DNA of 64,000 nt from Powellomyces hirtus (taxonomy: Eukaryota > Chytridiomycota > Chytridiomycetes > Spizellomycetales > Powellomycetaceae). Of this stretch, positions 28,544 through 53,149 are shown one piece after another; the stretch's first letter is position 1, and every line of letters starts with the position of its first letter. Where the stretch lies: assembly GCA_025526995.1 (NCBI GenBank), contig JAHLKG010000025.1, positions 1-64,000 of the forward strand. Direction: 5' to 3'. Made by a program: the position numbers and the translations under genes. The notes under the pieces were generated by a model. The model was not told the origin of the DNA. It saw only the letters and a list, made by a program, of their open reading frames with translations, and ran no database searches.

Positions 28544-28595
28544 TGTCGCAGGCCACTGATCCAACTCACGTGAGTTGGATCAGTGGCCTGCGACA
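28544..28595. repeat. 52-bp perfect palindrome at left PLV tip
   Basis: The outermost 26 bases of the virus are followed at once by their exact reverse complement, with no loop. The same palindrome sits at 53098-53149. Confidence 0.95.
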
Positions 28596-29360
28596 GGTAC
28601 AGTTGGATGGTTTGTGCCTATTTTGGGCACTGGTACATTTAGCACGGTTTGCCCAGGGTCATTGGTACATTTGCCATGGTTTGCCAATGAAAAGACACTT
28701 TTGGCGACCTAAGTACAAGTTCAGTTAACACTTTGCGACGTTTTGGAGCTGTGTGTACTCAAAGGTCACTTAGCTGCCGTGTGCTCCCTTTTGGCCTCCC
28801 TTCCACCGACGCGTCTGTCCTTGCCCAAGCCACACCTTGTCCGAAAGCCCGCGACTTTGATTACGTAAGCACCCTCTCTCATCTGTGCGTACTTTGCGCC
28901 AAAACAGCAAAACCCCCCTGGGAAAGAAGGGTTTATGCCCCAGCATCCAAACGGACACCAGTTGTATTCTTCCACTTGGTCTAAGTAGAAGCGCTGTATT
29001 GTTTATAGCGCATCCCATAGCTTGATGTATGTGTCCTAAATGAGCCGCTTGGCTCCTTGTCCTATATGGCTCTTTGGCCTCCTCGTCCTCCCACTGTACT
29101 GAGGCTACCACCAGTTGCGACTTTGCTTAAATAGGATTCTATTCACACCTCTTCCGCCTATCGATAGCTTCCCGTCGTAGCTGATACACTTGTAGTTGAA
29201 CAGCTGACCCCCTTATCCCCTCCCGCCCCATCCATCCCCCTTTCTCATCCATTGCCTCCTCTAGACCTTGGGTACCTTGGGTTCCATTGACAAATGCCTC
29301 CATGGCTCCATCGAGGTAATGCCTTATACCCATGTTCCATTTGTTTCCATTCATCAAAAG

Positions 29361-29518
29361 AAACCCAAGAAACCCAACCCAAATTCTATAAAAAACTTAT
29401 ATTGTAAATCGTATTTCATATTTTTTTGTTCACTCACAAGTTGTCAACTTCTTTTTTCCACTTTGCCTCTCTTCTGTCAAGATTAATATTCCTTTTGGGT
29501 ACTGGGTTTCTTGGGTTG
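29361..29518. repeat. PLV internal repeat, copy A
   Basis: Begins AAACCCAAGAAACCCAACCC and ends ACTGGGTTTCTTGGGTTG, so the ends are inverted copies of each other. About 158 bp, AT-rich inside. Nearly identical to 44999-45155; mirrored at 52175-52332 in the right TIR. Confidence 0.85.
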
Positions 29519-29798
29519 CCTCTCGATGCCCTCTCCATAAGCCTTCCCAACGTTACCCAACTTGACCCATTCCTCCATACTCTCCCTACATACCACTCCC
29601 TCTACTGCTAATATGGGAGCCTTGTGCCCCACTCGATTCTAAGCTCTGCCTTTCACATCCTGGCCTCCGCATCCTCCTCTGTCCCTTTGAGATTCCCAGA
29701 GCTGCATATGTCTTGTTTTTTTCACGCGTTTTGGCTACCGGTGTGTCCAATGTCCAACGCGTTCCTTCTTTCTCATAGCCACTCCTTTCTCGCTTACC

Positions 29799-29953
29799 AA
29801 ACCCAGGAAACCCAACACAAATTTTATAAACTTCTTATACTAGGATTCCTTTTTTCAGTATTTTCTCTCTCACACGTGCTCAACTCTCTTTTCCACTCTT
29901 ACCCGCCTGACTTGCAGCTTTCTTTGTCCCCTGGGTACTGGGTTTCCTGGGCT
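29799..29953. repeat. PLV internal repeat, copy B
   Basis: Diverged member of the same family: AAACCCAGGAAACCCAACAC at the left end and GGGTACTGGGTTTCCTGGGC at the right. Mirrored at 51740-51894. Confidence 0.8.
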
Positions 29954-29965
29954 TACTCGAGGGGG

Positions 29966-30384: not shown

Positions 30385-30798
30385 ATGCCAGCTCAACGCA
30401 ACCGTCAATTTGCACCGCTCGCAGAGGCTGCCCTTCAAAGGCTCACCGTGTCGGGCGCAAGACTACACTATCGAGTACTTGCCCGCCACTATCGACTCCG
30501 TCTGGCCAGGCTCACGTCTCGCTTGGAAGAGGATGCACAACTCGAGCAACGCAACGCGGAGCATTTGGAAGAACAGCTCGGCAGGCTTCGAGTGCAACAA
30601 ATCGCACAAAGTCAATCATTGGAGAAACCTGAGTTGGACTGTCCTGTATGTTTCGAAACATATGAGCAACTTACCATTGTCGTCTTAGCTTGTGGTCACC
30701 ATACATGCGGAAAATGCATGCTTGAACTAGATGCCTTTGATGACATGTTCTGCCCCCTGTGCCGTCACCCTATTACAGATATTAAGATTCTCCTCTAG
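30385..30798 (+). CDS. RING-finger protein of the PLV
   Basis: 137 aa. Residues 20-85 are an arginine-rich coiled coil; residues 91-132 are a C3HC4 RING (CPVCFETYEQL, then CGHHTCGKCMLEL, then CPLCRHPI). RING domains usually recruit E2 ubiquitin-conjugating enzymes, so a viral E3 ligase acting on host proteins is plausible, as in many large DNA viruses. The ATG follows a tandem-repeat leader. Intact. Confidence 0.85.
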   Translation: MPAQRNRQFAPLAEAALQRLTVSGARLHYRVLARHYRLRLARLTSRLEEDAQLEQRNAEHLEEQLGRLRVQQIAQSQSLEKPELDCPVCFETYEQLTIVVLACGHHTCGKCMLELDAFDDMFCPLCRHPITDIKILL

Positions 30799-30852: not shown

Positions 30853-31203
30853 TCATTCCTTGTCTTCTGTTTGGTCGCCAAAGATAGCAACAGGCTCCTC
30901 TTCCTTCCCAGACATTGCTGCACGGCGGACATCAAACGACTTCTTCTTTGGGGCTGACTTCTTTTTTGAATCTTCATCCTCCTTCTTTGGGGCTGCCTTT
31001 CGTTTCCTTGGCGTCTTTGGCTTGGATTCGCGGAGTAGTTCTTCGACGCGGTTCTCTGCCAAGTCCTTGTAGAAGGCATCTAGGATCTCCCTCCTGACAT
31101 TTTCAGGGACAATGGAGAACACTGGGTCGTCTTCAAAAGTTTTAACAATAGCGTCCACAGAAGCCTTGTCTTTGAATGTAGATGTCTCTCGGTTAAAGTA
31201 CAT
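30853..31203 (-). CDS. Small basic PLV protein, unknown
   Basis: 116 aa beginning MYFNRETSTFKDKASV. The first 65 residues look like a helical folded domain; the second half is lysine/proline-rich (RKRKAAPKKEDEDSKKK), which suggests a nuclear localisation signal or nucleic-acid binding. It is followed by a 68-bp gap from the receiver-domain gene, same strand. No family recognised. Confidence 0.6.
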   Translation of the reverse strand: MYFNRETSTFKDKASVDAIVKTFEDDPVFSIVPENVRREILDAFYKDLAENRVEELLRESKPKTPRKRKAAPKKEDEDSKKKSAPKKKSFDVRRAAMSGKEEEPVAIFGDQTEDKE

Positions 31204-31270: not shown

Positions 31271-31960
31271 TTAGATGACGCCGCAGTAACGCTCTACTAA
31301 AGTATGACAATCCTTCATTTGGAAGCCTACCCCCTTCTGTACAAAATCAGTGAATCCCAAAGCCATACCCTTTTCTTGGTACGAACGCGTAGAGTAACCA
31401 CTTACGCCGATGACGGGTACCGGTGGTGAAGAGGTCTCTCTTTTGAAAGCCCGTATTTCACTAACAACAGTAAGGCCATCCTTAAATGGCATTTCAATAT
31501 CGGTAAATGCAATGGAGAAGCGTTGTTTCTTAAATAGAGCAATGGCTTGGACGCCATCTGATGCAGTAGACACTGAAACGCGAGGGGAGTACTTTTTCCA
31601 ATAACGCTCAAACATTCGTTGTGTAATGACATCGTCATCCGCAAAGAGGATGTGGATGGTGGGAGTATCCGCCGAAGGTTCAAGTGTCGCAGGGGTCACA
31701 TGGTTGGGTATAGTCCAGCCTAACTCGACTTGAAACTGTTCAGTGTTCTCGGAAGAGTTTTTGTTGCTTGTTCGCGTATCCTGGTCGGACGAGTCGTAGA
31801 GACTGGTGTGAAGGCCTTCAACGAGTTCCACAACGTTGGTGGTGAAATCTTGTATTATCTGTTTTGCCTCACTGGTGGATGGGGTCAAGTCCTTCTTCCG
31901 CACTTGGAGCTGCAGAAGCAAGTTAAAGCAGCTTTTTTTGCTTTCAGTACTCATTTCCAA
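31271..31960 (-). CDS. Response-regulator receiver-domain protein
   Basis: 229 aa. Residues about 1-100 have no recognised domain. Residues 105-229 are a two-component receiver (REC) domain with all key residues: the acidic pair in LFADDDVITQRMF, the phospho-acceptor aspartate in IAFTDIEMPFKDG, the serine in PVIGVSGYS, and the lysine in VQKG. The fold receives phosphate from hybrid histidine kinases, common in fungi. No output domain is attached. It looks like a gene acquired from a fungal hybrid kinase or regulator. Intact and therefore probably expressed from the shared intergenic region at 31961-32227. Confidence 0.88.
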   Translation of the reverse strand: MEMSTESKKSCFNLLLQLQVRKKDLTPSTSEAKQIIQDFTTNVVELVEGLHTSLYDSSDQDTRTSNKNSSENTEQFQVELGWTIPNHVTPATLEPSADTPTIHILFADDDVITQRMFERYWKKYSPRVSVSTASDGVQAIALFKKQRFSIAFTDIEMPFKDGLTVVSEIRAFKRETSSPPVPVIGVSGYSTRSYQEKGMALGFTDFVQKGVGFQMKDCHTLVERYCGVI

Positions 31961-32227: not shown

Positions 32228-32569
32228 ATGAATCCGCCAAACGCGCGTACAATTGACTGTAACACGGAAGCCGAGTTCGTAAAGATTGCAGTAGAGTACC
32301 GAGAAATTCATGGCGAGGATACAATGTGGATTGTAAGGCCCACTATCGAGAATAGAGGTCTCTTTCACAAATTGCTTTTGTGTAGCTCGTTCAAAAGCGT
32401 GCACAAAAGCAAGATGCTCTGGAAGAACCGTAAAGGATTCATAGCATTCCAAAACTTGGAGACAGAGGACGGCGAAAGGCGGAAGCTCCTTGTGTTCGCT
32501 AGGTATCAATGCAAAGAGTTAACGATCCATGATTATTTGGAGATCACGTACATCAACGAGAAGTACTAA
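32228..32569 (+). CDS. Unknown PLV protein, 113 aa
   Basis: Starts MNPPNARTIDCNTEAEF and ends YLEITYINEKY. Alternating charged and hydrophobic residues suggest a small globular protein. Its stop overlaps the stop of the convergent fibre gene by four bases, typical of compact viral genomes. No family recognised. Confidence 0.6.
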   Translation: MNPPNARTIDCNTEAEFVKIAVEYREIHGEDTMWIVRPTIENRGLFHKLLLCSSFKSVHKSKMLWKNRKGFIAFQNLETEDGERRKLLVFARYQCKELTIHDYLEITYINEKY

Positions 32570-35500
32570 GAGGCTGCTATCAGTTGACCAGATAATTTCG
32601 ATATGCAGTTCCAATCCAACCCAGCGGTGTAGCAAGCGATTGTAGGGTTGAACTTTAACGAAATTATATCATTCGCGTTCAGTAGCAAATGAAATGTGCC
32701 TTGCACGGTGGAATACTGGTTTGGAAACTGCGCATTAATGGTTGCTTGAGTGGAGATACGGTCTGGAGGTAGTTCTCCATTCACGTCGATGGAGAACATT
32801 ATATTGTTATTCCCTATAAAGTTGGTCAATCCAATCGAAACGTGGAATTGCCAAAGACCAGTTTTTGGTATAACGTAGTCATAGGTCCCGTTCCTCCAAC
32901 CAGATTGAACTCCTTTGTTGTATCTAGTTGTAGTGACCATTTGAATTTTGGTTACAACGTTGGCTGGTAGATTCTGGTAGGTAGTAATTTGGGTGTTGTC
33001 GACGATAAAAAATGTTGGTACCTTTGAATCCACGGAGCCATTGAGACTAAGATTCCCCACTGCATCCAATCGAGCGATTTGAGTAGTGCCCCCATACCAC
33101 TTGAACCCTAAAGTGTTATTTGTATTAGGCACTGAATTCCATATGTGTCCCCCTTCCATCCCCACCGCATAATCGACATAGTCTGCAGCAATTTGTGGAT
33201 AGAGGACGATTTTGGTTCCAGTCGACCGAGTTGAAAATGTCGGCGCTTGAACTCCAGCCGAAGAGAAATGAATCAAATTTCCGGTTGAAGCAGTGTTTGT
33301 AAGATTCAACAACCCGCCATTAAGCGCCAATTTACCAGTCATGTCTATGGTTGCTACTGCTATTTCGCTTTGACCAGCCAGTCGAGTGAAAAAGTAAAAA
33401 GGTGTACCGCCGGCTCCAACCCCCCTTCCATCAATGCGGAGGGCAGCCGCTCCACTTGTCGTAACGGGGGTGTGCCGGAAGTTAACTCCAATATTGAGGA
33501 GAGGAGTAGACCCCCCGACCTCAGTAGTTATTCCGCAGGGAATTGTTCCTGTTCCAATATTGAATGATTTTTGTATGCTTAGGCCTCCAGCTACCTGGAG
33601 GGCTCCGGTCGTGGAAGAGGTGGATTCTGAAAGTGTTCCTAAGATAACATTGTTGCTATCGGCCAGAATTCGGAAACCTAGACCGGCCCCATTTCGGCCT
33701 TGGAGTAAGAGGTCACCAATGTCGTTTCGAATAGTCGTATTGTTAACACCACCATCACCAGTTCTTGTAGAACTGTTTATGAAGATGTTTAGGTTACCAA
33801 TATCGTTTCCAACTACCAAATTGTTGTAAGCGGCGTTTCCGTTACTTAGATTTTTGAACACACTGGTCCTTCCTCCATTGAAAGATCCTTGTGAAGCCAG
33901 GGTTCCGGTCATACCAACAACTCCACCAACCTGTAGAGATCCAGCAACGCCAACACCTCCTGCAATCTGCAAGGCGCCGCTCGATGCCGATACCGAATCT
34001 TCAGTGGAGGTAATCTTTACTGCAGAGTGATCGAGGGCCAAGGGGAACCCCCCGGTGGTTGTTGTAAGACTAAAGGAAAAGTGACAGAAGGTAAAAGGTG
34101 TTCTTGTTCTGAGACACACAAGTCTTATGTACTTGTAGGAGCCTGCGGTAAAGTTTAGCGTATGACTTGGGACGTCTGGTATATTATCTTGGTCGACCGC
34201 CACTGTCATGGTCCCGGTTGATTGTCCAACTAGCACCGCGATTCTCAGAGGCATTGATGGAGAGGGTTCGCCGAGTCTTTGATAAATTGTCACGGAAGAG
34301 ATTGTTCGAGCAGCGGGGAGATCTACGGCAATCCATTCGCCCGGTACGAACGTACTATTTGAGTCAATCCAGGAGGCTGTTGAAGTAGTATATACACCAG
34401 TTGTCGAGTTATAAGTACCGTTTCCAGAGACCCATGGAGCGGTTAACCGTTCCGATTTGAAACCTCTGTAGGCTTCATATCCAGCCGAGTAGATACTTGA
34501 AGCCGTTAAAGTATAAGTTCCATTCAAGTATTCCCACGTTGTTGGAGTAGAGGTTCCTGCCGTAAGGGCAGCCCCCCCTGCTGGAGGAAGAGGGACGGGG
34601 ACTGTATCACTGCCCTTGATTTTACTCCAGACGGTAATTTCTTTATTTGTTGAACCCCCGCTTTCCAGAGAGACCACTCGACCCGTGAGGTTCGTGACAT
34701 TAGTGTTTGTAGCAGTCAAGGATCCTATGGAGGCAAATGATCCATCAACATAAGTTTTGTTTACAAGATGGTTACCTAGAGTCGGCGCAGTGGCTACCGT
34801 AAGGTTTCCACTGTTGAGAACCATACCTCCATCGAAAATATCAACGATTGAAGCATTTGTATTTGTCCCTAGCCTAATGACTTTCGAGCCTGATGCTCGA
34901 ATGATTGCATCTCCGGTTTGTGCGTTTGAAAACCACTGCGTGTTAGACCCGCATCGTCCAAAGGATACATTATCTGCTATAGACAGCGCTACGCTTCCAG
35001 TGTTGGTTATATTGATGTAGCCATTGACCGCTAGTGATGTAAGTGTTCCAACTGAAGTTATCTGCGGCTGAGAAGCATTGACTGATAGCGTCGCTCCGGT
35101 TTTGGTAAGTCCAGTCCCAGCGGTCAGCACATCCTGCTTCGATGTAGCGAGAGCATCAACTGAACTTTTGGTTGCTATGATGGCCGAATCATAGCCAAGA
35201 ACGCTATTGGTTAAAGTAATCCCTGCAGCGACCGAGAGCGAGTTTTGCTTCCCGGTTTGCAGTGTTGTTATGGACAATTCAGTATTGGTAACTCTAGTAG
35301 CCAAAGCATCGGTTGAAGCCTTTGTAGAGATTATAGCCGAATCATAGCCAAGAACATTATTGGAAAGAGTGATACCTGAAGAAACACTGAGCAACCCCTG
35401 TTTCCCCGCTAAAGACGATTCAGTATTGGTAACTCTAGTGGCCAAAGCGTCAGTTGAAGCCTTTGTAGAGATTATAGCCGAGTCGTATCCAAGGACATTG

Positions 35501-38500
35501 TTGGAAAGAGTGATACCTGAAGAAACACTGAGTGTCCCCTGTTTCCCAGTTAATGAGGTTTCTGCACTTGTAACCCTGGCTGTAAGCGATGTCAGATTAG
35601 TGTTAGTCCCCCCCAAGGCTGTAATGGTTGCATATGTAGCATCCGTGAAGGTTCTATTCACAAGATGACTCCCGATGGAGGGAGCTGCCTCGGCAGTGAC
35701 TGTCTTTGAAAATGTGGCGGTCGATCCCGTGAGCCGGTTACCAATGAATAACGGCTTGTTAATTGTAACGGAATCAAGTGGAGTGAAATACTCCAACCTG
35801 ACTCCACAATATGCGTAATTGCCTCCATTGGTGAGACATACGAACCTGAGATAACTATATGCTGTGGAGGTAGTCGAGGTAAACCATTTCGGATCACGGT
35901 TGGAATCGCTCCAACCAACGGGTGTAGACTGGTGATACAACAGATTCCAGGATGCCCCATCATTCGACCCCAAAATTGCGAACGTCTGAGGCATCCCAAG
36001 GATGTTGCCTCCATCTCTATAGCGCAGCCTTGTCGCAGAGATACTCTTTGCAACAGGAAATTGAATCTGAATCCACTCACCCTTGTACGAAACTCCCGCC
36101 GCTGTGGTTTCAGTTGTTCTACTCGAAGTTCCTCCAGCACCCGTATACAGGTTTGTGAACCACAAACTCGAACCCCAATTTGCAAACGATTTATGACCCC
36201 TATTAACGTTGTCAGTATGACTGGTACTAATTGTATACAAGCCGTTACCCCAAGCCTCCCCGGCCACGGTGGTTGTCGAGGGCTCACTATCTGTAAAGAA
36301 AACCGTGGAGGGGACCCATCGCTGCATGCCAAACACAACGTCACCAATGGCAGAGAGTGTCTCTGATTGGTACGGGTTGATTGAGATAATGTTGCTATTC
36401 TTGACCAGTCCTTTCCCAACGGTTATTGGGCTGTTACTTTCCAAAATAGACACTTTGGCTTCCACAGCATCTAGAGCGATTTCTGCCCCATAGAGTCGCC
36501 CGCCGTGGTTGGCGATTGATGACTCAGCAGTGAGCAGACGCGTGTCCAAAGGCTCGACAAGACTAGAAACTGTTTCGATCGTCCAAGGCCTCGATATCTT
36601 CTCTTCAAACTCCCAAGTCTTTTCCAAGTTCATTCCATAGCACCACCTCCCAACCCTTACGTCCTCTGGCCAGGAGTCGAACATCAATGTTGTGCGTCTA
36701 GTATCCTTGTCCGAGTGAATAACAACATTGGATCCTTCGGACCAGATGTAGTTTCCATCATCATCGAGATCGTAGATTGGATTTCCATTCTCGTCGACTT
36801 GATCAGTACCGTCCGGATTCTTCTTCTTCTTGCGTTCCCGCTGGTACCCGAATATTACAGCAAACCCACCGAGGAACCCAAGTAGAGAAGGCAGGACGCC
36901 AATAATAGGAAAGATCGGCACCAGAGGTATGGGAGGGATCGGTGCAATAGGGACAAGTGGGAGGGGAAAGATCAAACTTGTAGGACTTGTCGACTGCACA
37001 ACTTCATTGTTTTCGTTCTTCAGTGTGTCATCTTCGTTATCAGTCTTTTTCTCATCATCATCATCGTTCTGGGTCTTCAGGTTTTGGCTCGAGATTATGT
37101 ACCCGGTAGCTGCGCTACCCATTACGGTTATGCCCATCCCCGCGCTGATTCGTAGATCATTGATAAAGGTACGGCCCATCAGGTTCAAACCAGCTCCTGC
37201 GCTGTAGTCCTGTTCTTCAGGAATGTTTACAGAGATGGTGTTGTTGCTGATTGTAACATTTTGGCCGGCGGTGTAGGGTTTCAACGTTGTCGAAACGGTG
37301 TTTCCCTGCACTTGGATATGTTCGCTCCCTTGTAAATCGAGTGCGACACTGTTCCCTGTTCTTTTTAATCCACTTTCAAAGGTCATGTTTTCCTTGATTG
37401 TGTTGAGTCCGACCTTCTCTAGTGCCCCCTCGACATTAAGCGCCAATTGGACATCATTGTTGGTGCCCTCCCGCAAGCGGAGTCCGTTTGCCGATTGGAA
37501 GATGTAGCCACCGCTTATCTTACCATTCCCGTCGATCTTAACAGATGACCCATTAACCAAAGGAGAAACGTTAACACCTAGATTGTTGTTGGCATCAACT
37601 TGTAAAGTTGCATCAGTGCGAACATTGAGGAGCCGTCTATTATTGGTTTCGGGTGCTACATCAATAGCCGAGCCACTTTGAATATACTGTGCTACATACG
37701 ACTGCGTTACAGCCTCGTTTGAATTGGGATTGAAATTCTGACTAAGTTCTACATGCGGGACGGACAGCTCAGAGAGCGTGTCATTGTATTCCAGCCGACT
37801 AGAAACATTGAAACCATCGAAGACCCCGTAGAATGGAATCTTATTGTTTCCTTTGGACTTGATAGCCAGGGCCTTGCCTCCAAACGATGCAAGTGTGTTC
37901 TTCTGGGTAAAGTCATCCGAGGTCCGCAAACGCAGCAAAGTGATGTCTGTATCAGGTACTTCATCTGTAAGGTCTGCCAATGCGTCGTAGCCCAACTCGG
38001 TCAATTCATCCATTCCCATGTCAAAGATTCCCCCGTTGTGAAGCGCACCCAAGGGCTTCAGCACATCCTCAGTGTTACTCACCAGTTCTCCGTCCTCCAG
38101 TTTCAGGCCTCGGCCGTAATTGAAAGTAATAGACCCGTCCTCCCCCCGCGCGATTGGCTCCCTCAAGGTTTCACGAACAACCGAGAGCTGCCCTTCGGCA
38201 TTCACCTGCAGTGTTGAATCATGGTCGAGTGTTAACTTGCTTTCAGAATCTATAAATAGCGGATCAGAGTAGTCCAGTCCTAGCATCCCATGTTGGACCT
38301 TAAGTGACTCGTCAAGTACCAGTTTGATCCCGTTGGCGTCTCTGGCCAAAGGGGCTTGTACTGTTTCCTTTACAACCGAGAGATCCCCGTCTTCCTTGAT
38401 CTCCAACGAGGCGTCATGGAACAAGGAGAGGCCTTCCTCTGTAACTGCGAATGGCGCTGCGGTGATTAGTTCTACAGTTTTGGTTTCTAAATCATGGGTT

Positions 38501-38817
38501 AAAGGAAACTCGTACATATCCGGCTTGTAGTTCAGGGCACCCTCATCTATCGATAGGTACTTGTCGTCAATCTCCAATCCAAGGGACACGACGCCCTCAC
38601 CTTCTTTGGTAACAGTGATTGGATCCGAGGATGTAACATCGTTAACCAACAAAGGACCGTGCTTGTTCTCTATGGTATCAGCAGCGACTTTTTGGAATCC
38701 AGTAATCTTGCTATTGGCAGTGAATGCCTTCATGTTGCCCGAGACAACGGGACTAATGAGGTTGGTATCCTCTAGATTTCGCAAGCCGGAGGACGTTCTA
38801 CTGTTCAATCCGGACAT
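32566..38817 (-). CDS. Giant fibre-like protein, 2,083 aa
   Basis: One uninterrupted frame, a quarter of the virus. Residues about 30-250 are repeats of the type PLxxxxxGLxLxxDxxLxVxxGxL, like the triple-beta-spiral shaft of adenovirus fibres. A very hydrophobic proline-rich segment (residues about 612-662, ending in RERKKKK) could be a membrane segment. Residues about 840-1005 resemble an F5/8 type C (discoidin) domain (WIQIQFPVAKSISATRLRYR, FAILGSNDGASW). About 1090-1260 are three near-identical 50-residue repeats (SSGITLSNNVLGYDSAI). A second discoidin-like domain spans about 1420-1585 and a C1q/TNF-like jelly roll ends the protein (about 1940-2083). Such domains bind surface sugars or lipids, so host attachment is the likely role. 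Confidence 0.8.
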   Translation of the reverse strand: MSGLNSRTSSGLRNLEDTNLISPVVSGNMKAFTANSKITGFQKVAADTIENKHGPLLVNDVTSSDPITVTKEGEGVVSLGLEIDDKYLSIDEGALNYKPDMYEFPLTHDLETKTVELITAAPFAVTEEGLSLFHDASLEIKEDGDLSVVKETVQAPLARDANGIKLVLDESLKVQHGMLGLDYSDPLFIDSESKLTLDHDSTLQVNAEGQLSVVRETLREPIARGEDGSITFNYGRGLKLEDGELVSNTEDVLKPLGALHNGGIFDMGMDELTELGYDALADLTDEVPDTDITLLRLRTSDDFTQKNTLASFGGKALAIKSKGNNKIPFYGVFDGFNVSSRLEYNDTLSELSVPHVELSQNFNPNSNEAVTQSYVAQYIQSGSAIDVAPETNNRRLLNVRTDATLQVDANNNLGVNVSPLVNGSSVKIDGNGKISGGYIFQSANGLRLREGTNNDVQLALNVEGALEKVGLNTIKENMTFESGLKRTGNSVALDLQGSEHIQVQGNTVSTTLKPYTAGQNVTISNNTISVNIPEEQDYSAGAGLNLMGRTFINDLRISAGMGITVMGSAATGYIISSQNLKTQNDDDDEKKTDNEDDTLKNENNEVVQSTSPTSLIFPLPLVPIAPIPPIPLVPIFPIIGVLPSLLGFLGGFAVIFGYQRERKKKKNPDGTDQVDENGNPIYDLDDDGNYIWSEGSNVVIHSDKDTRRTTLMFDSWPEDVRVGRWCYGMNLEKTWEFEEKISRPWTIETVSSLVEPLDTRLLTAESSIANHGGRLYGAEIALDAVEAKVSILESNSPITVGKGLVKNSNIISINPYQSETLSAIGDVVFGMQRWVPSTVFFTDSEPSTTTVAGEAWGNGLYTISTSHTDNVNRGHKSFANWGSSLWFTNLYTGAGGTSSRTTETTAAGVSYKGEWIQIQFPVAKSISATRLRYRDGGNILGMPQTFAILGSNDGASWNLLYHQSTPVGWSDSNRDPKWFTSTTSTAYSYLRFVCLTNGGNYAYCGVRLEYFTPLDSVTINKPLFIGNRLTGSTATFSKTVTAEAAPSIGSHLVNRTFTDATYATITALGGTNTNLTSLTARVTSAETSLTGKQGTLSVSSGITLSNNVLGYDSAIISTKASTDALATRVTNTESSLAGKQGLLSVSSGITLSNNVLGYDSAIISTKASTDALATRVTNTELSITTLQTGKQNSLSVAAGITLTNSVLGYDSAIIATKSSVDALATSKQDVLTAGTGLTKTGATLSVNASQPQITSVGTLTSLAVNGYINITNTGSVALSIADNVSFGRCGSNTQWFSNAQTGDAIIRASGSKVIRLGTNTNASIVDIFDGGMVLNSGNLTVATAPTLGNHLVNKTYVDGSFASIGSLTATNTNVTNLTGRVVSLESGGSTNKEITVWSKIKGSDTVPVPLPPAGGAALTAGTSTPTTWEYLNGTYTLTASSIYSAGYEAYRGFKSERLTAPWVSGNGTYNSTTGVYTTSTASWIDSNSTFVPGEWIAVDLPAARTISSVTIYQRLGEPSPSMPLRIAVLVGQSTGTMTVAVDQDNIPDVPSHTLNFTAGSYKYIRLVCLRTRTPFTFCHFSFSLTTTTGGFPLALDHSAVKITSTEDSVSASSGALQIAGGVGVAGSLQVGGVVGMTGTLASQGSFNGGRTSVFKNLSNGNAAYNNLVVGNDIGNLNIFINSSTRTGDGGVNNTTIRNDIGDLLLQGRNGAGLGFRILADSNNVILGTLSESTSSTTGALQVAGGLSIQKSFNIGTGTIPCGITTEVGGSTPLLNIGVNFRHTPVTTSGAAALRIDGRGVGAGGTPFYFFTRLAGQSEIAVATIDMTGKLALNGGLLNLTNTASTGNLIHFSSAGVQAPTFSTRSTGTKIVLYPQIAADYVDYAVGMEGGHIWNSVPNTNNTLGFKWYGGTTQIARLDAVGNLSLNGSVDSKVPTFFIVDNTQITTYQNLPANVVTKIQMVTTTRYNKGVQSGWRNGTYDYVIPKTGLWQFHVSIGLTNFIGNNNIMFSIDVNGELPPDRISTQATINAQFPNQYSTVQGTFHLLLNANDIISLKFNPTIACYTAGLDWNCISKLSGQLIAAS

Positions 38818-44100: not shown

Positions 44101-44471
44101 AGTGCTTTGGCATTGCTGTCGGGAGCAGCTCGCTTGCGCTTCACCGGCTGGTTAGCAGTCAGAGGCTGATCCTTATTCTCTTTTGCTTCAGGTTTATCGG
44201 TGGTAAGTACTGCCGAGCCAACGCCTGCTTTGGGTTGGATAATGGAAACCGTCTCGTTGCCATCCTTATCGGTCTTGGTAACGGTTTGGACACCGGCTGC
44301 ATCATACTTTGTGTAGGTTTCGACGCCGTCCAGGTCACGCTCCCACACGGCAATTCTCCTGTTCTGGTGATCTTTATCAATCCATTTGTAGAGTTCGTTG
44401 TTTGAAAAGAAGCGACACTCGATGCGTTTGCCGTAGTCGGTTTCGTAAGAGGTGTTTTTGGTTCCGCTCAT
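41157..44471 (-). pseudogene. PLV polymerase-palm plus SF3 helicase, one in-frame stop
   Basis: Two parts in the same frame are separated only by a TGA at 43491-43493. Part one (326 codons) starts MSGTKNTSYETDYGK and has two KGKQINEKGKK repeats and an acidic stretch. Part two has FYVDVDFVNSMPTQL, then Y-x2-NR, a K-x-AIALMLNSG helix and ELDVPIFDGG, which resemble motifs A, B and C of a polymerase palm of the TVpol type known from Tlr elements and virophages. A superfamily 3 helicase follows: a degenerate Walker A (DKSGGYCSKSKF), Walker B (LAIFEELDE), and NDLCQPKFDTGDIALVTRI. The SK in place of GK in Walker A is unusual. Replication protein of the virus. Confidence 0.8.
43491..43493 (-). other. 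In-frame TGA between the two halves of the replication gene
   Basis: The frame reads NVAVNQY, stop, IEYTYSKYSIN and then continues for 777 codons. A change of CGA (Arg) to TGA would explain it. Confidence 0.85.
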
Positions 44472-44998
44472 TGTTGACTGTTGACTGTTGACTGCAGGGT
44501 GTTTTCCAAGGTTGGATACCGGTTCGTTAATATTAGTGAACAGTCTTTATATTGTCCTCTAAACGCACATAGGCATGCGGAGTCAGAGGAATTTGGCCTA
44601 CGCGTGGTGCAGTGCTGATGTAAGAACGCTTCAAGCTACACATACCCGACACACAGGTAACAGTGGCAAAGTCACTGCGCAAAAGCTTCAGCGGTCACAA
44701 GGTCGCATTCTGATATAATAATGTAGTAGGCGTCCAAGCCGAAGGACAGGTAAGCTCGGGCACAGTCACTGTGCAATGTTCGCAGCTCCACGTGATGGTA
44801 GAGCTGATGTAATAGCGGATGGCACAGTCATGTTTTCGATTTTCTTGGCATGCACGTGCTGCGATCCTGATGTAATATCTGGTGGGACAGTCACTCAGCT
44901 GCACCCTGGGCAGCTTGGGTGCTCCATGTGACTCCCTCCATACCAGCATCGAGGCAGTACCACCAACCCGGATTCCCTCTCACTCGATTAATGGAGGG
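44472..44998. promoter_or_regulatory. Promoter and degenerate repeats upstream of the replication gene
   Basis: Contains TTTATATTG near 44544, ACGCGT at 44600-44605, and repeated variants of CTGATGTAATA followed by GGxACAGTCAC (near 44619, 44703, 44812, 44868). The ACAGTCAC part recalls the GGTGGGACAGT iterons at 30045. No gene. Confidence 0.5.
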
Positions 44999-45155
44999 AA
45001 ACCCAAGAAACCCAACCCAAATTTCATAAAAAACTTATATTGTAAATCGTATTTCATATTTTTTTGTTCACTCAGAAGTTGTCAACTTCTTTTTTCCACT
45101 TTGACTCTCTTCTGTCGAGATTAATATTTGCTTTGGGTACTGGGTTTCTTGGGTT
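44999..45155. repeat. PLV internal repeat, copy D
   Basis: Nearly identical to copy A in the TIR, including the sequence just beyond the right end (CCTCTCGATGCCCTCTCC). Confidence 0.85.
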
Positions 45156-45354
45156 GCCTCTCGATGCCCTCTCCACCACTTGTCCCATTGGAACCCAAAG
45201 TCCATCATGTCCCTCCGTGCGTCAAGGCAAGGCAAGGCCATGTTATACGAAAGCTCTCCCGCGCGTTTGATCGATTGAGCTCAGAGCAAGTCATATTTAA
45301 GCAAACGCACACATGAGAAGAAAAACCTGTAGCTTAATACTATACTACAAAAGA

Positions 45355-45861: not shown

Positions 45862-47112
45862 TTACAAAACGGTAACTAGCCCTCCGATGGACAATGTGAC
45901 ATTCTCGTGGTAAGTAGTCAACAAACGCACTTTTTGGGATGGAGGGGGACTGGCATGTTCCGTGTGAATTTTCAGGATTGCATCGGTCCCGGTGAAGGAT
46001 AGGGCCGCAGTGGAGCCTTCGTCCTTTGATTGGAAACCGTAACTGAAAGAGAACTGTTTTTGGTCGTAGTCTGCAAAGTTTATGTCCAGGTCCGCCATTT
46101 GCTCAAAGTCGTTGTTGGACAATTGAGATACCAACAGCGTCTGCCTATCGTAAGGACTATGCGAGATACCGGTGGTACCCGATGGAATCGTAGCATTGGG
46201 CCCTAATTGAAGTCTCCAAGACCTTAAATTCTGGGAAGAGAACATCTCGGACTTGTCTTTGGTAGGATCAGAGAGAACGTCATCGTCGACAAAACAACAC
46301 TCAATCCCTACGAGACTCCGGACTCCGCTCATATGTAGATTGAAGGTGTTCTTTTGGCCTCCGGAACATGGGTTCTCGGTCTGAGTGCTACGTACGTAGT
46401 CCCAGAAGATACTCTTGCCATCTGCGATCGCACGCGTGACATTGTAGACGACGCTGGGAGGGGGCGTAATGTATGGAACAAGACAACGGATATTGGACAC
46501 TCGAATCTCGTTCACATTTCCACTGGTGAACACTGTGGACGGGTCTGCGAGTACGATTTCGATGGTCAAGGCCTGGTTTGGCAATGCCCACGTGGGGAAA
46601 CTTTGGCCATTGCTAGCGTGGAGTGCACCTACCATTGGATGAAACGACACCGATGCGGTATGGGTTCCAGAGAAGACGTTGTTGGTTCCATACCCGCTCA
46701 TGTTTTGAAGAAGTTGCTTGTAGCCCTTGTTCAAACTACGGTAAGTTTGGGCAAGGTATGCGGGGTCTGAGTCGATCTTGGCCATGACCTCGTTTCCTGC
46801 TTTGATGGTAAGGCTTTGGATAATGGACTCCATTCCAAGTTTGGTGTTAACCAAACCTGCCCCACTGACAGGTACTCCATCATTGACGGCAGTGATATCC
46901 ATGGACAAAATAAGTTTCTGCAGTAGGAAACTGACAGAGTTGGAATCGCATGTAATCTTGATTGGTGTAAGGTTACGGCTCTTTGTTGAATATTCACTTT
47001 GACCAACAGGGCTATATACAGCAAGTCCTTCACCCCGAGGATCACTGAATGGCTTTGACCACGTGTTGGAGGAATAGATCCAGTTGCGAGGAATTGATGC
47101 TACTTGAGACAT
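45862..47112 (-). CDS. MCP: PLV major capsid protein (double jelly roll)
   Basis: 416 aa, intact, starting MSQVASIPRNWIYSSN. Length, beta-rich composition and position beside the penton gene and ATPase fit the hexon-like capsid proteins of PLVs and virophages. Features seen include LILSMDITAVNDG, a helical stretch (LAQTYRSLNKGYKQLLQNM), LPNQALTIEIVLADPSTVF followed by IRVSNIRCLVPYITP, the usual junction between the two jelly rolls, and ALSFTGTDAILKI near the C-terminus. The ATG lies 36 bp from the previous gene. The protein would form trimeric hexons. Assignment rests on pattern and context because I cannot compare structures. Confidence 0.8.
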   Translation of the reverse strand: MSQVASIPRNWIYSSNTWSKPFSDPRGEGLAVYSPVGQSEYSTKSRNLTPIKITCDSNSVSFLLQKLILSMDITAVNDGVPVSGAGLVNTKLGMESIIQSLTIKAGNEVMAKIDSDPAYLAQTYRSLNKGYKQLLQNMSGYGTNNVFSGTHTASVSFHPMVGALHASNGQSFPTWALPNQALTIEIVLADPSTVFTSGNVNEIRVSNIRCLVPYITPPPSVVYNVTRAIADGKSIFWDYVRSTQTENPCSGGQKNTFNLHMSGVRSLVGIECCFVDDDVLSDPTKDKSEMFSSQNLRSWRLQLGPNATIPSGTTGISHSPYDRQTLLVSQLSNNDFEQMADLDINFADYDQKQFSFSYGFQSKDEGSTAALSFTGTDAILKIHTEHASPPPSQKVRLLTTYHENVTLSIGGLVTVL

Positions 47113-47148: not shown

Positions 47149-47655
47149 CTATCCGAATATACCTCCATAATCATCATCTTCACTCTCTGACTGATCGAAT
47201 TCTACAAAGGTTGTGTATGGATTAGTGGCAGGAGCAGGCGATGGAGCGGGCTTTGCCTTGGGTTTAGGTTGCGCTTTGGGTACAGGTTTGGCTTTTTGCT
47301 TTTCTTCCAACGCCTTCTTTCGTGCCTCGCGCTTAATCCTGCGTTCCTCCTTCTCCTTTTCAAGAATGCGTTTGGCCTCGTCGATCTTCCTTTGCTTCTC
47401 GAGAACAGCATCCTCCTTCTTTTTCCGGGCCTGCATCTCCCGGAGGTTCTTGGCTCTGGCTTCGGTGGCCTTCTTCATGGCTGCGATTTGGCCGGGGGAG
47501 CGGGGCTTCTTGAGTGGTGCCGGAGCTACCGCGGGCTCTCGCACCTGTTCTTGTTCAGGCTGTTGGTCGGTATCTTGCACCGATTGGGGTTCCTCTGAAG
47601 ATTCCCCATCGGCACTCGAATGTTCATGTTGCAATTCGGGATCTTCTTGGCTCAT
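47149..47655 (-). CDS. Highly charged coiled-coil PLV protein
   Basis: 168 aa. An acidic Gln/Glu-rich N-terminus is followed by a lysine/arginine/glutamate helix (about residues 55-120) and a Pro/Lys/Ala stretch (KPVPKAQPKPKAKPAPSPAP), then an acidic tail ending DDDYGGIFG. It is located between the capsid and penton genes on the same strand, so a scaffold or core role is plausible. No homology recognised. Confidence 0.55.
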   Translation of the reverse strand: MSQEDPELQHEHSSADGESSEEPQSVQDTDQQPEQEQVREPAVAPAPLKKPRSPGQIAAMKKATEARAKNLREMQARKKKEDAVLEKQRKIDEAKRILEKEKEERRIKREARKKALEEKQKAKPVPKAQPKPKAKPAPSPAPATNPYTTFVEFDQSESEDDDYGGIFG

Positions 47656-47684: not shown

Positions 47685-48413
47685 TTACACATCGCTTTTA
47701 TCGTCTAGAATGGCGAAACGCACAGATAACGGGCTATTTAAGGAAACCTCTGTTCCCGTGAGACTGTTAACAAGGTGGAATTCTATTCGAGACACCGTTT
47801 CTTCAACCGGGAGGTATTCGCCTCCATCGTTCGTCCAAGTAACAATGTCTCCGAAACTATCTGGTGTCATGGAGGCAACAATAGATTGCGCAGCGTCGGT
47901 GTAGTCAGTGAGATACACTTGACCCTTTACGGAGATGTTGGACGTCAGCAGGACCGGGTAACTCCCGCTCAAAGTTAACAGGATTCTTCAAGGTAAGACT
48001 CTTTCCATATCCCGTCTCGTACCTGCTCGACATGCCGGTTAAGACATAGGCTGTGGTGCCGCGATATCCTTCGAGAATCTTGAAATCAACACCGCTCGTA
48101 GAAACTGTTAGTCGTCGGCTTACTGGGCTATATGTCACTTCATAGGTGTTGCCCGCCCCCGATGCTGCTGTCAAGGCGGAGGCGATAGCGTCCCCAAAGT
48201 TCACGATCGAGTAGTTACCGTTGGGGATGGTTGCGTATAGAACAGTGTCAGCTTCCTTGTTCGGCAAAGGCAATCTTATTGTTCACCCCGTTTTCTACCA
48301 GGATCCCAGTCTTGCAGGAACGAAACGGAGAGGATCTTGAACGCCTCCACCCGCCTAGGTTGGATGTTGTAGACACGTTGCTTCAGAGATGAGTAAAGGA
48401 ACTCGCCGTACAT
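47685..48413 (-). pseudogene. PLV penton-like minor capsid protein (frameshifted)
   Basis: Starts MYGEFLYSSLKQRVYNIQPR, then changes frame twice near 48300-48265 (FLQDWDPG, NNKIAF, then EADTVLYATIPNGNYSIVNF), and again near 47975 (LTLKNPVN to LSGSYPVLLTS), ending SVRFAILDDKSDV. The stretch ATIPNGNYSI followed by a helix and YEVTYSPVSRRLTVS is characteristic of the minor capsid proteins that form pentons in polintons, PLVs and virophages. Three frame changes mean no full-length product is made unless the assembly is wrong. Confidence 0.8.
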
Positions 48414-48449: not shown

Positions 48450-49161
48450 ATGTCGTATAAGCCGAAGCCCATCTTTCCTACTAAGAGAAGGCAACGGGAT
48501 CCTCGAATCCCGCTCGATATTCAAGACCCGCCACTATGTACCACACTTATCGCTCCAAGAAAATCCGGGAAGTCCGCTTTGGTAGCTGGGTTGATCGAAG
48601 ACGTGTATGCCAAGGTGTTTTCCAAAGTTGTGATCATGTCGGATACAGTCATGTACGACAAGTCAATCAAAGAACTGGCCGAGAAAACAAAACATAAGAA
48701 CATCTACTTCACCGACGAGGTGACCAATGCGTCTATAAAGGAGATTCTTGAGGAGCAAAAGGAACTGTCCAACGAATGGGAAAACACTTCTCTTGATGAT
48801 TGATGATGCGGGAGATAATGCCCAAGGCAAAGAACTGAACAAAGAACTTTCCAAGTTGTATACACGTGGAAGACATTTTGGGATTTCCTCCATGGTTTGC
48901 ATACAGTCCGTATCCGGGCAATTGACGCGTAAGATGAAAAACAATACCACGGAGTTCATTATATTCAAAAACAACGCGGAAGACATGGAGGCGTTGGCGC
49001 GACTGCTCACGTCAGCCTTTAAAAACAGAAAGGAAGTTCTCACATATCTTACCGAGTGCACTTCAGAGCCATACAGTTTCTGCTATATCAATCTCGCAGC
49101 CGACGATGCCAAAACCATGTATAGATACTGCGACAAGGATGGCTTCAAGGACTACTTTTAA
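48450..49161 (+). pseudogene. PLV A32-type packaging ATPase (one frameshift)
   Basis: Starts MSYKPKPIFPTKRRQRDPR. Walker A is IAPRKSGKSALVAG; Walker B is LLLMIDDAGDN; these are the motifs of FtsK/HerA-like genome-packaging ATPases of polintons and nucleocytoplasmic viruses. The frame changes once at about 48785, between NEWEN and KTLLLMIDD, close to Walker B. The rest (TRGRHFGISSMVCIQSVSGQ, the sensor region) is intact to the stop at 49161. Runs opposite to the capsid genes. Confidence 0.88.
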
Positions 49162-49196: not shown

Positions 49197-50560
49197 ATGT
49201 CTTTTGTTCCACTATCACCGGAGGAAGAGGAACTTGTTTCGAAGGTCTATGAAACGTACCCGTTTGGAAGAGATCGCTTAAGGGACGCTGTTCTCGCTAA
49301 GCACCCAGAGTTTAAAGGAAGCAGACGTGCCATACTGTACTGGTTGAAAAACCAGAGCTCTTGGCAAACCCAGAACAAGCCCAACTCTAACCGCTCCACT
49401 ATTGCCCCCCTACAGATCACAAAGCCGGGTTACTTGCAGTTAGATAATGTCTCTATGCGGACGTATCCCGACAGCGGTTACATAGCATTCTCCCATGTTA
49501 TAGACGGCTTCACCAAGAAGTCATGGGCGCGACCTTTGCGCACTGAAGAGGAGAAAGAAACGGTAGACGCAATCGAGTCCATGTTGGATCAGATGCAACA
49601 GGAAGGAAAGAAGGTCACAATTATCCAATCAGATAACGGGAGCACCTTCCAAGCGCGCTACAGGGCCCTCCTAGACAAGCGTGGGATCAAGTATACCTAC
49701 TCTGCACCTGCAAGACCACAAGCAAACTCCTTCATAGAAAGACGTGGAGGGGACATCAAGGCAGCACTCTACAGGCTCATGGAGCTCCACGGAGACAAGA
49801 GGTGGGTGCCGCGTTTCCAGGGAGTTATAGATTCAATCAACAACTCAAAGTCATTTGCTACAGGTGTCACCCCGAACTCTTTGGAGAACGCAGGCGATTG
49901 AGATGCAGCAGAGAGTGCAGGAAGAAGATTGCGTCCAACCTTGCCTCGCGCTATAAGACGAAAAAGATGATGCGCCCTCTTTACGTTGGACAGCAGGTGA
50001 GGGCGCGCTAGAGTTCTCCAAGTCGTCAGTGAAGAAACCCTGGCCTGCTTGGATACTGGAACAAGGAGGATCCTAACCGTTGTCCAACGGCTTAACTCGA
50101 CGTATGCCAACTTTCTCCCATCGTACAGACTAGCCAACGCGAATGGAGACGTACTTAAAGGAAGGTACGCGCGAACGGACCTGCTAGAGATCCCGCCCAT
50201 CCTCAGTAGGGACATAGAAGAAGCCGATGACTGACTTGGAGGACTTGTCTGATGAAGACATTGAAGACTCAAACGCACCACAAGATGACACTCTCGTACA
50301 CAACGAGCTGGTTAATCGTGGAGCACTCTGAACAAGTACAAGTACGACAACGGAGAAAGTCACTGAGAATAAGCAACGCCAACAACGATGAAGAAGCAGA
50401 GTACGAGATTGAGTTTATTTTAGGTAAACGACGATACAGGGGGAGGGTAGAGTACAGGGTCCGTTATCTAGGCCTATAATAGTGATAGTGATGAATGGAG
50501 GGGGGAAAGGGAGTTGATAGATCTTGCGCCAGAGTTAGTAGAAGAGTATAACAGCCTGCA
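49197..50560 (+). pseudogene. PLV DDE integrase with chromodomain (frameshifted)
   Basis: The first frame (49197-49901, start MSFVPLSPEEEELVSKVYET) holds an N-terminal helical domain and the RNase-H-like core with the triad seen as LQLDNVS, QSDNGSTF and SFIERRG. The C-terminal part continues through other frames: KTKKMMRPLYVGQQVRAR, RILTVVQRLN to GRYARTDLLEIP (50078-50195), and a chromodomain (YEIEFILGKRRYRGRVEY, then after one more shift NSDSDEW and LAPELVEEYNS at about 50480-50556). Polinton integrases commonly end in such a chromodomain, which steers insertion to marked chromatin. At least three frame breaks. It is the likely cause of the 5-bp duplication. Confidence 0.88.
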
Positions 50561-50567
50561 CACCGCA

Positions 50568-51674
50568 TTAGTCCTGCTCCAAGCGCCCCGGGAGGGACTT
50601 GAACAGATTGTAGTATCGCTGGTGCACAGCATAGGTGTGCCCCATGAAACTTTCAATGTACCTTTGGTACTTGACATCTCCCCGGTCCTTCTCAGAGAGT
50701 TTGATTCCCATGGAAATTCGAAGCATGCTCACCGTCACGTTCTTATCAAACATTTGGAAGAGCCTCTTCTTGAATTCCCTGCCAAACCAGTGTGTGTCCG
50801 GTTGTTTTCCAACCCCCTGCCTTGACTGTACCTTCATGAAAAGGTAGTCTTCCTTCCGGGCGCGTCGTGCTTTCATCAACATGCACACATAAGGCTCGAT
50901 GATTTTGCTGAACTCGATATGGCAGTTCTTCACCTTGGTCTTGGTGGTCTCTTTGATGGTGAACCCGCTACAGTCGTCCTTTAGGATGGCGTTATCGTTC
51001 TCTTGAATGTTTCTGAATTTGATCATTGCTACATCCAGGCGTCTGATCTTGTTGGACATGATCAGGATTGCAAAGGCAACAATCATCTGGTTGGCGACAA
51101 TGTTCTTCCGGTTAAGGGTTTTCAGTTTCTCCAAAAGTTTCTCTTTCATGTTGTCCATGTCAATATAGTTGTTGAGGTTCTTGTCACTCATCAACTGGCT
51201 GTCAACGTCCTCGATGTGCGTCTCCTTCATGCGATCATTAGAGTGCGCTTTGAAATAACGATGCACATGCTCGTCAAAGTACGTTTTAACATCTGCACCT
51301 TTTGGTAAGGTGTCTCCAAGAATGATAGCCTTCTCTTCAATGGTCGCATTTTTACAGATTTTGCTGTACACTTTGGCGTAGTTGGATTGAGCGTCGATTT
51401 TACCATATACACTCTCGAGGTGATTCATGAGGGCCTTTCCACTTTGGAGACGGTGCAAGTTATCCCTCTGAGCGTGCAAGTAAATGAAGTCGTTCTTCTT
51501 TGTGCTATCCTGGTACTTTCGCGAAGTGTGCGCACGCTGCATAATGTCATAGAAGAATTTGTAGTTCAATTGAGGGTCCATTGTTTGGGTCAGTTTTCCA
51601 ATTTTAGTATTGTACACTGTTTGTCCCTTTATATAGCTTTTTAAATTCATCTGTCTCCGCGTATATGTGGTCAT
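50568..51674 (-). CDS. PLV tyrosine recombinase
   Basis: 368 aa from the ATG at 51674 (MTTYTRRQMNLKSYI). The N-terminal 180 residues are helical, as in core-binding domains. The catalytic half shows the first arginine in MSNKIRRLDVAMIKF, VSMLRISMGIKLSE with the second arginine, and ESFMGHTYAVHQRYYNLF with the histidine/tyrosine pair, i.e. the R...R..H...Y tyrosine-recombinase pattern. Intact, and the gene ends within the chromodomain end of the convergent integrase. Tyrosine recombinases occur in Tlr-type PLVs and some virophages; possible tasks are resolving genomes, excision, or alternative integration. Confidence 0.85.
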   Translation of the reverse strand: MTTYTRRQMNLKSYIKGQTVYNTKIGKLTQTMDPQLNYKFFYDIMQRAHTSRKYQDSTKKNDFIYLHAQRDNLHRLQSGKALMNHLESVYGKIDAQSNYAKVYSKICKNATIEEKAIILGDTLPKGADVKTYFDEHVHRYFKAHSNDRMKETHIEDVDSQLMSDKNLNNYIDMDNMKEKLLEKLKTLNRKNIVANQMIVAFAILIMSNKIRRLDVAMIKFRNIQENDNAILKDDCSGFTIKETTKTKVKNCHIEFSKIIEPYVCMLMKARRARKEDYLFMKVQSRQGVGKQPDTHWFGREFKKRLFQMFDKNVTVSMLRISMGIKLSEKDRGDVKYQRYIESFMGHTYAVHQRYYNLFKSLPGRLEQD

Positions 51675-51727
51675 CCACCAGGATTCCCGGCAGCCAAAAC
51701 GCTCCAAAACAGGCAAGACATCTGCAG

Positions 51728-53149
51728 CCCCCTCGAGTAAGCCCAGGAAACCCAGTACCCAGGGGACAAAGAAAGCTGCAAGTCAGGCGGGTAAGAGTGG
51801 AAAAGAGAGTTGAGCACGTGTGAGAGAGAGAATACTGAAAAAAGGAATCCTAGTATAAGAAGTTTATAAAATTTGTGTTGGGTTTCCTGGGTTTGGTAAG
51901 CGAGAAAGGAGTGGCTATGAGAAAGAAGGAACGCGTTGGACATTGGACACACCGGTAGCCAAAACGCGTGAAAAAAACAAGACATATGCAGCTCTGGGAA
52001 TCTCAAAGGGACAGAGGAGGATGCGGAGGCCAGGATGTGAAAGGCAGAGCTTAGAATCGAGTGGGGCACAAGGCTCCCATATTAGCAGTAGAGGGAGTGG
52101 TATGTAGGGAGAGTATGGAGGAATGGGTCAAGTTGGGTAACGTTGGGAAGGCTTATGGAGAGGGCATCGAGAGGCAACCCAAGAAACCCAGTACCCAAAA
52201 GGAATATTAATCTTGACAGAAGAGAGGCAAAGTGGAAAAAAGAAGTTGACAACTTGTGAGTGAACAAAAAAATATGAAATACGATTTACAATATAAGTTT
52301 TTTATAGAATTTGGGTTGGGTTTCTTGGGTTTCTTTCGATGAATGGAAACAAATGGAACATGGGTATAAGGCGTTACCTCGATGGAGCCATGGAGGCATT
52401 TGTCAATGGAACCCAAGGTACCCAGGGTCTAGAGGAGGCAATGGATGAGAAAGGGGGATGGATGGGGCGGGAGGGGATAAGGGGGTCAGCTGTTCAACTA
52501 CAAGTGTATCAGCTACGACGGGAAGCTATCGATAGGCGGAAGAGGTGTGAATAGAATCCTATTTAAGCAAAGTCGCAACTGGTGGTAGCCTCAGTACAGT
52601 GGGAGGACGAGGAGGCCAAAGAGCCATATAGGACAAGGAGCCAAGCGGCTCATTTAGGACACATACATCAAGCTATGGGATGCGCTATAAACAATACAGC
52701 GCTTCTACTTAGACCAAGTGGAAGAATACAACTGGTGTCCGTTTGGATGCTGGGGCATAAACCCTTCTTTCCCAGGGGGGTTTTGCTGTTTTGGCGCAAA
52801 GTACGCACAGATGAGAGAGGGTGCTTACGTAATCAAAGTCGCGGGCTTTCGGACAAGGTGTGGCTTGGGCAAGGACAGACGCGTCGGTGGAAGGGAGGCC
52901 AAAAGGGAGCACACGGCAGCTAAGTGACCTTTGAGTACACACAGCTCCAAAACGTCGCAAAGTGTTAACTGAACTTGTACTTAGGTCGCCAAAAGTGCCT
53001 TCTCATTGGCAAACCATGGCAAATGTACCAATGACCCTGGGCAAACCGTGCTAAATGTACCAGTGCCCAAAATAGGCACAAACCATCCAACTGTACCTGT
53101 CGCAGGCCACTGATCCAACTCACGTGAGTTGGATCAGTGGCCTGCGACA
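51728..53149 (-). repeat. PLV right terminal inverted repeat
   Basis: 1,422-bp inverse copy of 28544-29965. Contains mirrored internal repeats B (51740-51894) and A (52175-52332) and the terminal 52-bp palindrome (53098-53149). Confidence 0.95.

Follow-up and report, generated by a model that had tools for sequence, protein, structure and literature searches.

The window analyzed here, a stretch of 64,000 nucleotides (nt) comprising positions 1 to 64000 of contig C25 in the 29.26-Mb, 60-contig assembly of Powellomyces hirtus, almost certainly contains an integrated polinton-like virus of this chytrid (order Spizellomycetales), which belongs to a set of at least eight related elements in this genome, is inserted in a copia retrotransposon, is flanked by a target site duplication of 5 bp, and has palindromic tips of 52 to 54 nt. 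We further propose a chain of events in which the virus is inserted by its rve integrase, has hairpin ends as free DNA, and is acted upon at its tips by a tyrosine recombinase. The action of the rve integrase is well supported by the target site duplications, and we infer the hairpin ends and the recombinase action from the anatomy of the elements; taken as a whole, the chain is about evenly balanced in our judgment, with a slight lean in its favor.

Element borders, insertion site, and host

The element spans positions 28544 to 53149 (24606 bp; the element, its target site duplications, its tips, and the internal repeat copy are given without strand). Its terminal inverted repeats of 1422 nt, at positions 28544 to 29965 (plus strand) and 51728 to 53149 (minus strand), are 99.58% identical (6 mismatches over 1422 nt), and the 5-bp duplication ACGGA is found immediately outside them at positions 28539 to 28543 and 53150 to 53154. 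When the element and one ACGGA are removed, the copia reading frame runs continuously through the site, ISNNDTDEAIVCVDVLYVPEASRNLVST, and the insertion is therefore exact. These borders, the inverted repeats, the duplication, and the restored copia frame bear out an earlier note, made from the sequence alone, that had placed a 24.6-kb integrated polinton-like virus here.

The element combines a double-jelly-roll capsid and an FtsK/A32-type packaging ATPase with a size and terminal inverted repeats typical of polinton-like viruses, which range from 14 to 40 kb and have such repeats (PMC12220804). The major capsid protein (positions 45862 to 47112, minus strand, 416 amino acids [aa], with seven copies in the genome) has a double jelly roll in its structure model, as the earlier note had predicted. 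The packaging ATPase (positions 48450 to 49161, plus strand) matches Pox_A32 with an E value of 3e-6 and is here split over two overlapping frames (48450 to 48803 and 48739 to 49161), while in the C30b and C50 copies it is a single frame of 251 to 257 aa. Of the 26 capsid relatives found in two listings, the second confined to the best 7999 candidates, 22 are named, and all of these belong to four chytrid genera, Powellomyces, Spizellomyces, Gaertneriomyces, and Phlyctochytrium (the last filed under Chytridiales), or to their MELD virus. The relatives in Spizellomyces punctatus are 65% to 66% identical to the window capsid. Queries with the capsid, ATPase, recombinase, and integrase and with the tip pattern gave no confirmed relative in a viral contig collection.

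The genome is that of a fungus, as had been supposed from the neighboring genes, and we reject an algal host. The reading frame at positions 11762 to 12187, a WD40 protein identified as RACK1, had been put forward as a taxonomic marker. It fails in this role, because the fungal-looking Gib2 ranks first, ahead of vertebrate chains, by only a fraction of a bit.

The host copia element has long terminal repeats of 247 nt (26871 to 27117 and 56570 to 56816; 98% alike), and its pol frame (53347 to 55944) contains a Chromo domain (E value, 2.5e-9) between the integrase region and the reverse transcriptase. Farther out lie the inverted arms of a Mutator-like element (25245 to 25382 and 58578 to 58715; 97%) and a MULE domain at positions 57065 to 57934. 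Positions 25245 to 58715 probably form a three-level nest, in which the Mutator-like element contains the copia element (26871 to 56816) and this in turn contains the virus. Joining the outer sequence across the copia element gave no single frame, and no copia target site duplication was seen. Within the viral element, part of the terminal repeat recurs at positions 44935 to 45198 (84%), and a second terminal-repeat-like piece is found at positions 40932 to 40996 (75%). Both are perhaps scars of module exchange.

Related elements in the P. hirtus genome

The capsid has seven matches in the genome: the window copy on C25 and copies on C8 (98%), C50 (86%), C13 (85%), C3 (80%), and C30 (78% and 53%). 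Both tips fall within a single contig for five elements, namely, those on C25, C8 (760242 to 785197), and C3 (285069 to 309186) and the two on C30, here designated C30b (86357 to 111551) and C30a (114665 to 139423). Others are broken by contig ends. Their flanking 5-mers match between C50:3910 and C19:665168 (GCGTC) and between C13:781246 and C50:972 (CCCCC, of low complexity), and the pieces on C13, C50, and C19 are therefore probably two elements. C11 carries one end of an eighth element. A gap of only ~2.9 kb (C50:1026-3909) separates two elements that share a tip type, and these two elements seem to join contigs C13, C50, and C19 in succession.

By their predicted gene content, the elements are mosaics. 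The replication-type genes encode a D5-type protein in the window (729 aa), a different D5-type protein on C3 (923 aa), and a Herpes_ori_bp-like protein in C30b (981 aa), and a cytosine-5 DNA methylase domain is found in a 715-aa frame beside the class B recombinase in the C13 and C50 elements (L032:5796-7943 and L042:1598-3745). The fibre-like proteins are 84% to 97% alike across the elements except in C30b, where the values are 53% to 63%. An rve frame is present in all seven capsid-bearing elements. The C30b element also encodes a papain-like protease (L046:3983-5053; Peptidase_C1 E value, 4.9e-11) with a match to CBM_5_12, a domain of the chitin-binding type, just under the cut-off.

For the five elements flanked on both sides within a single contig, the target site duplications are ACGGA, TCGGA, ACCGT, GGCGT, and AATGT. 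In addition, a lone palindrome of tip type 2 (see below) at C3:481967-482018 is flanked on both sides by CATGC. The duplication is exactly 5 bp at all six sites and extends to 6 bp at none; among 30 mismatched flank pairs used as a control, not one agrees. The lone palindrome looks like the remnant of a recombination between the two tips of an element, by way of either the recombinase of the element or an ordinary deletion; at the sensitivity of the search made, its flanks occur nowhere else in the genome. It is scarcely credible that the window derives from a contaminating algal or protist contig or that the tips arose as an artefact of assembly. Integrated polinton-like viruses have been described in large numbers from the genomes of protists (PMC10120064), but the element is nested in a retrotransposon, and tips are found at many loci, each with its own flanks and target site duplication, on which grounds we reject an artefact.

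Palindromic tips

Both ends of the window element (positions 28544 to 28595 and 53098 to 53149) consist of the same 52-nt perfect palindrome, made of TGTCGCAGGCCACTGATCCAACTCAC followed directly by its exact reverse complement, with arms of 26 nt, no loop, and GGT as the inner neighbor. Palindromic tips of 52 to 54 nt are present on all seven capsid-bearing elements. A chance origin is rejected, as only ~6.5e-9 such palindromes would be expected in the P. hirtus genome. The pattern of the window class gave 25 single matches (5 in the reversed control), of which 16 form eight whole tips, 1 is a half tip on C10, and 8 are lone matches with one mismatch. A second tip class, beginning with TATSACAGTGCA, gave eight whole tips and none in the control; its pattern requires mirrored outer arms and is thus unable to find other kinds of end. 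Several tips were first found in a pattern-free manner, by repeat scans or general palindrome scans. Fifteen of the 16 whole tips adjoin element sequence and one stands alone; 15 are perfect, and one has a single mismatch (C3:309135).

The tips fall into five sequence types, all with the inner neighbor GGT. Types 1 and 2 have the outer 15 nt in common and differ at 9 of the 11 inner positions, and the differences between types 4 and 5 are confined to positions 13 to 18. All changes between types occur on both arms together, and the outer letters are conserved. The remainder of the terminal repeat is exchanged: the terminal repeats of the window and C3 elements barely align, except for a 169-nt stretch at 76% and the outer parts of the tips.

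Some partial or similar structures were also seen. C10:909778-909803 (L026) is half of a type 1 tip with 2 mismatches and no partner arm and, on its sequence, is an old remnant. On the inner side of the left tip of C30b, four near-palindromes are spaced ~205 nt apart (L037, C30:87209-87896). In the window, a 72-nt near-palindrome at positions 59040 to 59111 (arms of 31 nt and a loop of 10 nt), within the coding frame at positions 58836 to 60725, starts with GTGTCGCA, which resembles the start of the viral tips.

Two recombination enzymes

In addition to the rve integrase (positions 49197 to 49901, plus strand, 234 aa; rve E value, 1.3e-11), the window element encodes a tyrosine recombinase, here termed class A (positions 50568 to 51674, minus strand, 368 aa), which has no Pfam match. 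Its AlphaFold model matches Cre, XerA, and topoisomerase IB and thus has the fold of the tyrosine recombinase family. The catalytic residues Arg, Lys, Arg, His, and Tyr, assigned by eye, are invariant (R211/R212, K245, R319, H346, and Y355) in all four sequences, two of which are 99% alike. Comparison of a recombinase profile with the sequences of solved structures gave chance matches only, such as troponin.

Class A genes are found only in the C25, C8, and C3 elements, whose tips are of types 1 and 2, and genes of a second class, B, with a weak Phage_integrase match (E value, 0.02), only in C13, C50, and C30a, whose tips are of types 5 and 4. In C30b, whose tips are of type 3, the end of a 462-aa frame looks by eye like a tyrosine recombinase, unconfirmed by any tool, and a comparison of this frame with class A gave no profile similarity. 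Six of the seven capsid-bearing elements therefore have, besides rve, a tyrosine recombinase of a class that follows the tip class, the seventh (C30b) being tentative. The rve integrase also tracks the tip class, and the conserved part of the tips is the outer 12 to 15 nt, as would fit palindromes that serve only as symmetric binding sites of this integrase and are kept alike by gene conversion. We consider this very improbable, since the center is perfectly symmetric over 52 to 54 nt though its letters are not conserved, which integrase binding would not require; we also know of no integrase-bearing polintons that end in such palindromes.

A survey of cryptophytes (dataset of 8300) described rve and a tyrosine recombinase together in 11 viruses and one virophage, and there the rve was in every case part of a retrotransposon insertion, fused to its reverse transcriptase (PMC12220804). 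In the P. hirtus elements, both full rve frames scanned (C8 and C30b) have a C-terminal chromodomain and no reverse transcriptase. The tyrosine recombinase therefore probably serves some purpose besides insertion.

Proposed mechanism

Tentatively, we regard it as possible that chytrid polinton-like viruses are hairpin-ended linear viruses that use rve for insertion and a dedicated tyrosine recombinase to resolve palindromic telomeres. The rve integrase would insert the virus, which would give the 5-bp duplication. In the free viral DNA, the palindromes would be the telomere-like chromosome ends, probably folded into hairpins, and copying through a hairpin would equalize its two arms, so that inner letters would change on both arms at once. 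The D5-type primase-helicase, together with host polymerases, would produce genomes joined tip to tip by the full palindrome, with no need for a protein-primed polymerase. The tyrosine recombinase of the element would recognize the tip of its own class, cut and rejoin there, and resolve the joined genomes in the manner of a telomere resolvase. Acting on both tips of an inserted copy, it may also release the element and leave a single palindrome, as at C3:481967.

Two properties of the class A recombinase weigh most heavily against this proposal. Its closest solved fold is Cre, and the Tyr that telomere resolvases have at the position of the HxxR histidine (PMC3558466) is not present; by eye, this position holds S, R, or K. 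Telomere resolvases were not among the best 50 structure matches listed for the class A model, which excludes nothing. The missing Tyr and the similarity to Cre favor a different explanation, in which the palindromes are only lox-like sites at which a Cre-like recombinase excises a circle or breaks multimers and the free genome has no hairpin ends. We nevertheless hold it to be unlikely, as it leaves the replacement of inner letters on both arms at once unexplained and can draw on a single scar, which ordinary deletion between the tips could also give. The inner letters of a lox-like site must match but need not be self-complementary.

Perfect palindromes with concerted arms would also be expected of self-priming, fold-back ends like those of parvoviruses, in which the 3' end primes copying, a nickase reopens the end, and the tyrosine recombinase does another job. 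The lack of a polymerase B match agrees with this possibility (Pfam scan of 18 element frames, judged at an E value of 0.1 or better). No nickase was found among the Pfam or PHROG matches above chance, with part of the sibling frames scanned, and the recombinase class follows the tip class; we consider fold-back ends quite improbable.

To our knowledge, it is an open question how the ends of polinton-like viruses that lack a protein-primed polymerase are completed. A concrete answer is suggested by the palindromic tips, whose arms change in concert, which correspond to a recombinase class, and which persist while the remainder of the terminal repeat is swapped; a chytrid host with a sequenced genome makes this answer testable. 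If it is true, the tips would also serve, in fungal genomes, as markers of where such elements begin and end and of the scars that they leave.

Other genes and state of the window copy

The D5-type primase-helicase (positions 41157 to 43346, minus strand, 729 aa) matches D5_N (E value, 2.2e-13) and the primase family phrog_1156 (E value, 1.5e-38), which upholds the replication helicase of the earlier note. Likewise, its RING and receiver-domain genes were recovered as a RING-finger protein at positions 30385 to 30798 (plus strand, 137 aa; zf-C3HC4_3 E value, 3.4e-9) and a response regulator protein at positions 31271 to 31954 (minus strand, 227 aa; Response_reg E value, 5.7e-17). The latter is 99% to 100% identical in the C8, C11, and C3 elements. 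A different receiver-domain protein of 127 aa is found in C30b (L037:4243-4626), and frames 33% identical occur at C16:1542, close to the contig start, and C43:32576. Of the predicted fibre gene (positions 32566 to 38817, minus strand, 2083 aa), two F5_F8_type_C stretches (E value, 9.4e-15) were identified, and we infer the fibre role itself.

A small basic protein (positions 30853 to 31203, minus strand, 116 aa) is kept in the siblings and has no Pfam match over the cut-off, and a 113-aa protein (positions 32228 to 32569, plus strand) is kept in C8, C13, and C3. Another 113-aa protein (positions 40587 to 40928, plus strand) likewise has no Pfam match over the cut-off. The 552-aa protein at positions 38916 to 40574 (minus strand), which has no Pfam match and homologues in the C8, C13, C3, C50, C30a, and C30b elements, is likely a virion protein. 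A charged protein (positions 47149 to 47655, minus strand, 168 aa) adjoins the capsid gene. The frame at positions 47905 to 48282 (minus strand, 125 aa from stop to stop; 241 aa in C8) has no Pfam match and is a candidate penton or minor capsid protein. Against PHROGs, the capsid had no match and the recombinases had none of note (best E value, 0.013, function unknown); the capsid also had no match among phage records or the sequences of solved structures.

Compared with its siblings, the window copy has a split ATPase, an rve integrase shortened to 234 aa without a chromodomain (454 aa with a C-terminal chromodomain in C8), and two more shorter frames; the 326-aa frame at positions 43491 to 44471 (minus strand) has a 533-aa counterpart in C8. 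The reverse is also seen: in C8, the helicase frame has 564 aa (729 aa in the window) and the fibre is divided between two frames, and in C3 the integrase has a frame of 333 aa. We read several copies, that of the window among them, as decayed, with introns as another possibility.

Comparison with known systems

Polinton-like viruses of chytrids were already on record. One was published from S. punctatus (Bellas and Sommaruga 2021, PMC7805220), in a study that describes integrated elements in a fungus and in oomycetes, seven of them with inverted repeats and three of these seven with duplications of 5 to 7 bp. GenBank lists Powellomyces chytrid fungus MELD virus 1-6 as third-party annotations (TPA). 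The novelty of a fungal host, which the earlier note had thought a notable addition, falls accordingly. Like the S. punctatus group, the element is integrated in a spizellomycetalean chytrid, and its capsid has relatives in S. punctatus, but that group is described as lacking E3 ligases, whereas the window element has a RING protein, and as having chitinase in 52%, whereas none was found among the window frames scanned (PMC7805220). In the main text of that paper, neither palindrom- nor response regulator appears. The MELD viruses have the same host genus and capsid family (the hexon of MELD virus 5, the one hexon compared, is 65% identical). Their names are reportedly linked, through a reference list, to the adintovirus paper of Starrett in 2021. 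In the literature searched, mostly without subscription papers and preprints, and among the matches listed, we found no description for these viruses of palindromic tips, concerted arms, a recombinase-class match, a lone-tip scar, or a genuine pairing of rve and tyrosine recombinase, and no such end-replication system for any polinton-like virus or virophage.

Like Polintons/Mavericks, the elements have inverted repeats, an rve integrase (with a C-terminal chromodomain in C8 and C30b), a packaging ATPase, and a double-jelly-roll capsid; unlike them, they have no polymerase B match, an extra tyrosine recombinase, and palindromic tips. Their duplications are exactly 5 bp rather than the 6 bp typical for rve (PMC12220804); for polinton-like viruses, duplications of 5 to 6 bp are on record.

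With Cre/lox, the elements share the closest solved fold of class A and the presence of two identical sites in one element, but identity to the Cre entries is 7% to 10%, the HxxR histidine is absent, and the tip is palindromic through its center. The telRL palindrome of N15 is 56 bp, and in the phaeovirus EVEc, an integrating giant virus of brown algae, a telomere resolvase is found together with an N15-like palindrome (PMC13236599). The P. hirtus elements, also DNA viruses that integrate in a eukaryote, likewise carry a palindrome of similar size alongside an enzyme of the tyrosine recombinase type, whereas their palindrome is placed at the two ends of the inserted copy and is not internal, and the resolvase-specific Tyr is absent. 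A palindrome of ~50 bp at the genome ends, a candidate substrate for a telomere resolvase, is present in all seven elements. Large DNA viruses with hairpin ends also use D5-type primase-helicases, which would be a further resemblance if the hairpin ends are real. The tips would then link small capsid-bearing mobile elements to the hairpin-ended giant and pox viruses.

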